Assembly: GCF_000003815.2 (NCBI RefSeq) | Contig: NC_049992.1 | Location: forward strand, 10,466,755-10,530,754 | Direction of reading: 5' to 3' | Length of the DNA stretch: 64,000 nt | DNA from: Branchiostoma floridae | Taxonomy: Eukaryota; Chordata; Leptocardii; Amphioxiformes; Branchiostomatidae | Shown here: positions 57,028 through 60,000 of the stretch, piece after piece | Layout of the letters: each line of letters starts with the position of its first letter | Numbering within the stretch: the first letter of the stretch is position 1 | Made by a program: the position numbers and the translations under genes | Notes under the pieces: generated by a model | Told to the model about the DNA's origin: nothing | Database searches by the model: none | The model's input: the letters and a program-made list of their open reading frames with translations, nothing else

Positions 57028-60000
57028 CTATTCCTTGCTGGCCATGTACTGGATGAGGTCGACAACACGGAAGCTGTAGCCGTATTCATTGTCATACCTG
57101 TGGTACAGGAGAAAAACGACAGACATTACGAACTCAGACATACTTATCAAATGTACCTGTGTCATCCTTTCCATACAGTTTTGTTATTTTTTTCTCTGCA
57201 TCAAATCATGTTTTAAAACTAAACTTCAGATAAACCACAGTAGGCTCCTCACATTGTTGTGCATAAAACACGATTGCGTCATAAGGGGTCCGAACCTGAA
57301 ATGACCATTTAGACCCTTTACAACTCAGAACAGACTGTAGAAATAGCTAACAACTCAACAAATCCAATTTTATTACGTGCCTTCGGAGATCATGAACCAA
57401 TACAAACAAAAGATTTCATGCTGGCACTCTAGCCACTAATACATTTACATATACTTACCAAGAGACAAGCTTGACAAAGTTGTTGGTCAGTGCGATGCCC
57501 GCCTTGGCGTCAAAGATACTGGAGTGGGTGTCGCCCATGAAGTCTGAGGACACCACCTAACATGCAGGCATGCAGTTAGTATGCAGGCTCAGGCTAGGTA
57601 GCCTCATACATGAGTCGCCTATATCTGTGCGAGACAGACCCATTCACACACACAGACGTAAACACATGTCATTCCCTACCATGTGACCAGCTTGACAAAA
57701 TTATTTGTCAGAGCGATGCCAGCCTTGGCATCAAAGATACTGGAGCGCCCATCCCCAATGAAGTCAGCTGAGACAACCTGGCTCAGCAGAAGACACCACA
57801 GCAGGAGGAAAGGAAGGGTAACAGAAATGTAGGAAAATTCAGGGGAAATAAATATAAGAATGGGGAGGGATGATGTGGAAAATAGGAAAAAATAGAAATG
57901 AAACAATGATAGAAGTTGAAAGAAAGTGATAGAATGAATATGACAGACGACCAATTGAAAATTAGAGTACAGTTGCCTAGATTGTACAGAAAATCAGGAA
58001 AAAAAGACAGCTACTGGGACGTAAAACATTCAATATACACAATCACACATGGGTAGTTTAACAACTTAAAAGATAATACCACATACAGAGGTTCACATCT
58101 TACAAAATGTAGCTGATCAGCAGCTGACTATGTATTATCTCCCAGTCAGCCTACAAGATTGTGACTTAACTGCAAAAACAAGCTCATTTACAAATCATTA
58201 AATTCATTGCTGCCTTGAATACTGAAAACAGAACAATCACCTTGATCTGCGAAGAAAATCTAAGCAATCGTCACAATTGAACTTACATCCTCATCCGTGT
58301 ATCCCAGATATCCCTTCAGTGGGCCCTCAGATGCCTTCTTCACCACAGCCTTGATCTCATCATAGGAAGCCTATGGGGAAGGGGGGGTTAGAATGAATGA
58401 AGACCTTTAGTTTATTGTACTTTTTTGCCCAACGAGCTAAGTACAGGTCACAACAAAACATATATATCATACTAAAAGCATCACAGATCTAGTCTAAAAC
58501 AGAAGTTTGGCTTCTTCTCAAATATAGGAGACTCAGCACATGATAAGTAAAATAAAACTACATACAACTTGCATTGACTTACATGTTGTTTCAAGAGTGG
58601 GCATATGTTAACTTATGAATGGCAGAATGTATATGTTACGTATCAGATTTTCATATGCAAATTGGTGCTTACTCCTTTCTTCAGTCGGCAGGTCAGGTCG
58701 ACCACGGACACATCAGGGACCGGCACACGGAACGCCATGCCTGTCAGCTTCCTGTAAAGATTCCAGAGAGCTGTTACATGTGGGAAATGTCAGTCCTTCT
58801 AGTAGCATCTAGCGGTGCTTAAAATGCTGATAAATAAACTCAGACAAGTCGACTTTGGGGCATTTTAACACAAATAACCAGCTGCAGTTAGGGGTTAGGT
58901 ACCAGTACTGTACTGCAAAAATAAAATTGGTACATGTGCAAAAACACCAGATCAAGAAGTACTGTTACAGATTTACTCATTTTGTGACTTAAGATGCGTA
59001 AATCCTACCTCAAACACGATAATTCAGCATTCCTCAATAGAGTAAAAGCTGGATAATTGCACGAATTTCACTGGCAAATAGGCCGTGCAATTAAGCGGCT
59101 TCTACCGTATCATAAAAACTTGACTCACCCGTTCAGCTCAGGAATGACCTTGCCCACAGCCTTGGCTGCCCCAGTGCTTGCTGGGATGATATTCTGGTGG
59201 GCACCGCGCCCGTCACGCCAGGCCTTCGCGCTTGGGCCGTCCACGGTCTTCTGCGTGGCGGTGTAGGCGTGTACCGTGGTCATGAGACCCTCCTCGATGC
59301 CAAATTCATCGTTGATGACCTTGGCCAGTGGGGCCAAGCAGTTGGTGGTGCAGGAAGCATTGCTGTAAACAGATTTTATATCAGATTGTCAGGTCACTGT
59401 GCACAATATTTCACAAACCAAACTACAAAATTTCTTATCCACTCATCTATCCATCCAGAAACTCAACTAACACCTAGTTACACATTTCGATTTAAAAAGT
59501 ACAGAAAATTGTATACATGTACCTCTTTGTCCGTCTTTTTTCTATGCATAGAGACATCCAGTTTAAGTGTGGAAACTACCAAGTATACCTTAGACATCTG
59601 TACATGTACAAAAACGTATACAAGGTACAGTCATGATTGTACCACTTACTACATGTACGAACTCACAACTTACTGAATGCAAGGCAAAAGCTCGGCCCAC
59701 TCAGCCATTGCACCAATTACATATGGAAATATGGGAAAACTGTAGACACAGTGTTTATATTATCCATCCCATATTTCCCATATGTAATTGGTGCAATGGC
59801 TGAGTGGGCCGAGTGTTCACCTTGCATTCAGTAGGTCGCAAGTCTGATCCCTGACTGGGTCATACCAAAGACTTAAAAAATGGTACAAGCTGCTTTCTCT
59901 GCTTAGCCCTCAGCATTCTGGAAAGAGTATGGAAGTTGAACACACACCACCACCGGTGGACTAGCCCCCTGCTGTAGTGATTTCCCAAAGTTGTGTGGCC

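Follow-up and report, generated by a model that had tools for sequence, protein, structure and literature searches.

An old tandem duplication of a GAPDH exon in the lancelet genome, probably spliced one copy at a time into two isoforms

Judged by its sequence, a single glycolysis gene of the lancelet Branchiostoma floridae, that of GAPDH, probably makes two slightly different enzymes. The ninth coding exon of this gene stands in two tandem copies, designated here 9a (upstream) and 9b (downstream), and the explanation that we regard as very likely is an old duplication of exon 9 whose copies are spliced one at a time into two competent isoforms, with the choice made at the splicing step. A previous sequence-only reading of the locus had already proposed an exclusive pair giving two isoforms, and this proposal draws support from the frame logic, the splice sites, the constraint on the copies, the search for a second gene, which found none, and the regulatory architecture. 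The part of it that did not stand is the idea that the reading frame could by itself impose the choice, since the frame alone enforces nothing.

The gene lies on the minus strand of the window, by which we mean the whole analysed stretch of 64,000 nucleotides (C14:10466755-10530754), and the assembly that was searched comprises 513,431,437 bases in 431 contigs. Spliced with 9b, the gene product aligns end to end with GAPDH chains of the PDB (best E 8.2e-171), and both the active-site segment (CTTNC) and the WYDNE end are present; the coding exons and the signals around the pair are collected in Table 1. Intron 5 of the gene also contains an inverted repeat around ATTTCCATATGTAATTGGTGCAATGGCTGAGTGGGCC (59660-59880, seen by eye), possibly a hairpin or the trace of a small mobile element. 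Elsewhere in the window, two open reading frames on the plus strand near the end of the gene (51760-53581) presumably belong to an SLC45-type sugar transporter, judging from their resemblance, and a cluster of long, mutually similar frames occupies the minus strand at 6107-7303, 7658-8941, 20646-22267, 24957-26189 and 27246-28550. We take these last (6107-28550) to resemble rhodopsin-type receptors; the copy at 20646-22267 consists of two overlapping frames, split at 21236-21290, and a run of unread bases interrupts the window at ~18320-18750.

Table 1. Coding exons of the lancelet GAPDH gene and sequence features around the duplicated exon (positions in the window).
Feature	Position	Strand	Remarks
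GAPDH gene, coding extent	57028..62428	minus	10 coding exon positions; GT/AG junctions
Exon 1	62406-62428	minus	
Exon 2	61575-61671	minus	
Exon 3	60955-61067	minus	
Exon 4	60567-60657	minus	
Exon 5	60084-60199	minus	
Exon 6 (active-site exon)	59129-59362	minus	
Exon 7	58673-58751	minus	
Exon 8, upstream of the 9a/9b pair	58287-58370	minus	donor GAT|gtaagt
Candidate distant branch point CTAAT of 9a	57961..57965	minus	prediction; branch A 185 nt from exon
AG-free pyrimidine-rich tract before 9a	57784..57978	minus	195 nt, 75% C/T
Exon 9a	57680-57777	minus	98 nt; GC3 0.53; weak donor ATG|gtaggg
Intron between 9a and 9b	57557..57679	minus	123 nt; 3 overlapping UGUGUG, 1 TACTAAC, 2 UGCAUG
TACTAAC branch-point consensus of 9b	57575..57581	minus	branch A 57576, 20 nt before exon
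TGCATGCCTGCATG, two Rbfox-type UGCAUG sites	57561..57574	minus	between 9b branch point and acceptor AG
Exon 9b, vertebrate-like copy	57459-57556	minus	98 nt; GC3 0.78; strong donor TTG|gtaagt
Exon 10, last coding exon	57028..57097	minus	ends with stop

As the sequence-only reading had described, the two copies are equal in length, carry complete AG and GT splice sites and share their phases (0 on entry, 2 on exit), and exon 10, from 57097, finishes the W codon (TG|G) begun by either of them. They are identical at 77 of 98 nucleotides, and the 21 differences are distributed as 3, 2 and 16 over the first, second and third codon positions. At the protein level five of the 32 residues differ, including the change of DTH to DGR that had been pointed out: S/A at position 283, M/I at 286, T/G at 289, H/R at 290 and S/T at 311 (9b/9a). 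The number of silently changed codons, put earlier at about fourteen, comes down to 12 of 32 when counted, with 15 identical and five replaced, and corresponds to 14.8 synonymous changes by the Nei-Gojobori method. The comparison of dN and dS between the copies, which had been suggested as a check, gives a dS of 1.38 and a dN of 0.090 (pS 0.63, pN 0.085), that is, an omega of 0.065. Random scattering of 20 differences over either copy changed 13 residues on average and never fewer than 6 or 7 (20,000 trials each), and the contrast of synonymous with non-synonymous differences is itself strong (Fisher P 2.7e-7), so that the small number of residue changes in the pair is not a matter of chance. 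With a silent divergence of ~1.4 and flanking introns that do not align with each other (best blastn match 22 nt, E 0.27), the duplication must be old. The copies 9a and 9b are thus the product of an old tandem duplication in which both have stayed intact while the pair diverged under purifying selection. Lancelet genomes are known for their high heterozygosity, which could suggest that two haplotypes of one exon were placed in tandem by the assembly; such an assembly or allelic artefact is nevertheless extremely improbable, because one contig carries both copies, 63% of their silent sites differ and the surrounding introns do not align.

The changed residues allow a first comparison of the two predicted proteins with solved GAPDHs, based on 16 alignment rows in which some chains are repeated. 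Among the displayed PDB rows, position 289 is T, S or N, position 283 is T, C or S and position 311 is S or A, and the states of 9a at these positions (G289, A283 and T311) occur in none of the 16. Position 290, on the other hand, is H in the vertebrate rows and R in rice and lobster GAPDH, and the lobster enzyme also has I at 286; the lobster query is matched identically by 4gpd and 1gpd. Two of the five replacements are therefore quite ordinary (I286 in lobster, R290 in lobster and rice), and a derived state of 9a at each of the five sites was given up as a reading. What holds of the two readings of the copies is that the downstream 9b, with its DTH, is vertebrate-like, and that the upstream 9a, with its DGR, looks derived at three sites (283, 289 and 311). 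Both isoforms should be catalytically competent, because they share the active-site exon and the WYDNE end. By comparison with the Q-axis residues D282/Y283 of B. stearothermophilus GAPDH, we assume that the changed residues are placed at contacts of the tetramer, and the difference between the isoforms would most likely tune the enzyme, in its subunit contacts, stability or partners, and not its chemistry.

No second GAPDH gene or processed copy was found among the best-scored candidates of the 513-Mb assembly. A protein search with exons 9b and 10 gave three matches, namely 9b, 9a and exon 10 of the gene described here, and the active-site exon 6 matched once, at the gene itself; a search with the Gp_dh_C family gave three matches among six candidates (exons 6, 7 and 9b), with 9a absent from them. 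In the same direction, a 2011 survey that made use of RefSeq transcripts and ESTs reported a single GAPD sequence for the lancelet (PMC3224139), so that 9a must have been scarce among them or have gone overlooked, a point mildly against its abundant expression.

The signals of the two copies are of a very different kind. Of the 3,574 AG-free runs on the window's minus strand, the tract preceding 9a is the longest, though by a small margin over the next three (192, 189 and 189 nt). The AG exclusion zone of this exon, counted as 201 nt if one AG located 6 nt before the exon boundary is disregarded, compares with 21-60 nt at the nine remaining acceptors. (The plus strand has the longest such run in the whole window, 255 nt with 73% pyrimidine, at 10279-10533.) In human genes, exons with an AG exclusion zone of at least 100 nt are alternatively spliced more often (PMC1431707). 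The best placed of the branch-point candidates of 9a is the CTAAT at -185, with further ones at -158, -122, -78 and -72. In its donor, 5 of 9 positions agree with the consensus, as in exon 7, the remaining eight donors having 6-8. Exon 9b, in turn, has a perfect TACTAAC at -20 and a strong donor, and its pyrimidine tract is poor. Both copies thus show the AG and GT boundaries and the branch-point candidates of the mutually exclusive class, with a weak donor in 9a, and an AG-free tract, a possible distant branch point and that weak donor would give 9a the features of a regulated exon. The GC3 of 9a (0.53) lies below that of exons 1-8 (0.69) and of 9b (0.78), which fits with a lower expression.

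A weak donor, a lower GC3 and the single GAPD sequence known from lancelet transcripts and ESTs (PMC3224139) are also what could be expected if 9a, functional for a long time, were now silent or nearly so and the gene in practice made the 9b form. The weight of the constraint on 9a alone depends here on the share of the silent changes that is attributed to this copy. With half of them, neutral drift would have left ~23 replacements in 9a, against at most ~6 (P 3e-5); a share of 40% yields P 9e-4, and at 25% the difference is not significant (P 0.06). A long neutral drift of 9a is hence unlikely unless only about a quarter of the silent changes fell on it. At a silent divergence as high as 1.38, the exon moreover still agrees with 9b in frame, in the two splice sites and in 27 of 32 residues. 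We consider a fading exon decidedly improbable, and two isoforms in actual use the better explanation.

How the use of one copy at a time might be enforced is a separate issue. The claim that both copies or neither would break the frame is confirmed, as either single copy leads to a GAPDH of 334 aa, inclusion of both shifts the frame and meets a stop within 9b, and skipping of both shifts it towards a stop at codon 281. For the frame logic as a basis of exclusivity, the loss of frame therefore stands and enforcement by the frame alone does not, the positions of the stops being unfit for decay. Nonsense-mediated decay is triggered as a rule by stops located >50-55 nt before the last junction. 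The stop of the double-inclusion product lies 28 nt before that junction and the one of the double-skip product falls in the last coding exon, so that decay is not expected for either; decay of mis-spliced RNA is thus doubtful as the enforcer, provided that the 3' UTR contains no intron.

Exclusivity could alternatively result from steric blocking or from competing RNA structures of the Dscam class without any regulator, as the intron between the copies is short (123 nt) and a hairpin of -33.7 kcal/mol (z -2.0) can be drawn over the acceptor of 9b. Steric blocking, however, operates when the branch point lies within roughly 50 nt of the upstream donor (PMC7969005), and the distance from the 9a donor to the TACTAAC of 9b is 103 nt, so that it is not supported. 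A shift of the stretch by 6 nt brings the z of the hairpin to -0.8, and this structure, dependent on the stretch chosen, was set aside. Pairing between the introns was no better than in shuffled sequences, 13%, 13% and 63% of 60 shuffles being as strong. Such a purely physical origin of the exclusivity is accordingly quite unlikely. With steric blocking and decay both apparently insufficient, and intron pairing no stronger than in shuffles, a regulated choice is proposed.

The candidate regulators have to be looked for in the introns of the pair. The UGCAUG dyad occurs once in the window against 0.03 expected and in 3 of 100 shuffles, and single UGCAUG motifs show no enrichment there (47, with 52 expected). 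The chance of two sense-strand UGCAUG in the 123-nt intron is ~9e-4, a value to be read as that of a pattern noticed post hoc among 12 motif patterns, and the pair may belong to a small CTGCAT repeat. In FGFR2, Fox2 represses the downstream exon of the exclusive pair through UGCAUG in the intervening intron, and the binding assay of that study showed no direct effect on the upstream exon (PMC2880598). Rbfox-like RRM pieces are encoded on contig C171 (3 of 12 matches, with 96, 82 and 68% identity to the query), and a search of the assembly with the Fox-1_C family gave no match, which is uninformative, control genomes being equally without one.

Taken together, these elements suggest how the two forms could be produced. 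If a single copy is spliced in each time, the gene would give one isoform of vertebrate type (9b, DTH) and another with 9a (DGR). Exon 9b, with its strong donor and perfect branch point, would be the default, and 9a, a weak exon preceded by a long pyrimidine tract and a distant branch point, would be susceptible to PTB-like repression. In cells rich in Rbfox, the binding of this protein to the two UGCAUG in the acceptor of 9b would block 9b and lead to the use of 9a, in the manner of FGFR2 exons 8/9. We infer this mechanism of choice (default 9b, PTB-like repression, Rbfox switch) with less certainty than the existence of the two isoforms. In its strongest version, in which the only GAPDH gene of the lancelet gives two isoenzymes through an Rbfox-controlled switch and the UGCAUG pair blocks the vertebrate-like exon, it is a tentative proposal that we hold to be rather unlikely.

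The same one-at-a-time use could be controlled by other factors, of the PTB, CELF, Nova or MBNL type, the UGCAUG dyad being incidental. Intron 8 is rich in PTB-type motifs (seven UCUU against 2.7 expected and three CUUUC against 0.6), and three overlapping UGUGUG of CELF type are found ~26 nt past the 9a donor (57645-57654, minus strand; 0.07 expected), which makes such regulators equally possible. There are precedents for both classes, since PTB and hnRNPA1/A2 repress PKM exon 9 (PMC3498831) and UNC-75/CELF controls the exclusive exons of unc-32 in C. elegans (PMC3585155). Nothing speaks directly against this option apart from the lack of enrichment of Nova and MBNL motifs, and Rbfox is compatible with these factors; we give it a serious chance, if below an even one. 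Under either set of regulators, the reading that we favour continues to be that of an exclusive pair with two isoforms.

GAPDH is a standard reference gene, widely treated as an invariant housekeeping gene. It has been called the most highly conserved of the glycolytic enzymes, with a change in its catalytic domain of ~3% per 100 million years (PMC1508162). If a constrained alternative exon indeed exists in it, cells would need two forms of the enzyme, there would be another step of glycolysis, next to that of PKM, at which isoforms are switched, and normalisation with lancelet GAPDH would be affected. The sequence-only reading knew of no described mutually exclusive exon in animal GAPDH, and likewise none was recognised among the listed titles and abstract openings of the literature searched, which included few subscription papers. 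It may be that existing annotation already lists 9a and 9b as two predicted isoforms.

A tandem pair of exclusive exons with incompatible frames is in itself a well-known kind of arrangement, whose nearest representatives in metabolism are PKM and OGDH. PKM also encodes a glycolytic enzyme, and its neighbouring exons 9 and 10 specify 56 aa each; the 167 nt of exon 10, like the 98 nt of the lancelet copies, are no multiple of three, and one of the exons is actively repressed, by PTB and hnRNPA1/A2 (PMC3498831). It is nonetheless a different enzyme, for which isoform use is proved and carries metabolic weight, whereas the evidence for the lancelet pair is genomic. In the exon pair 2/3 of alpha-tropomyosin it is the downstream exon that has the distant branch point, which lies too near the upstream donor. 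The candidate distant branch point of the lancelet gene belongs, by contrast, to the upstream copy, and for this reason it cannot block the joining of 9a to 9b. The positions themselves are comparable, with -175 for rat alpha-tropomyosin exon 3 (PMC1431707) and a predicted -185 for 9a. Exons 4a/4b of OGDH, which encodes a subunit of a metabolic dehydrogenase, derive likewise from an ancient duplication and are separated by a short intron (118-131 nt in birds and mammals, 123 nt in the lancelet), but their exclusivity relies on branch points located 25-41 nt from the upstream donor (PMC7969005), compared with 103 nt in the lancelet.

Regarding the regulation, the closest parallel is offered by exons 8/9 (IIIb/IIIc) of FGFR2, where a UGCAUG repeat is also found in the intron of the pair near the downstream acceptor and where Fox2 blocks the downstream exon and shifts the choice to the upstream one (PMC2880598). 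An equivalent action of Rbfox in the lancelet is a proposal, and FGFR2 differs in that ESRP and ISE/ISS-3 are also used. As for the enzyme itself, vertebrates too possess two GAPDH isoenzymes in one animal, GAPD-1 and GAPD-2, which stem from a gene duplication, while the two lancelet forms would stem from the duplication of an exon; an alternative exon described for lizard GAPD-2 is a cassette exon and not an exclusive pair (PMC3224139). At the base of the chordates, the lancelet pair lets two routes to isoenzymes, the doubling of an exon and that of a gene, be tested against each other in a simple way, and, if the Rbfox switch were true, the duplication of an exon would do here what the duplication of a gene did in vertebrates.
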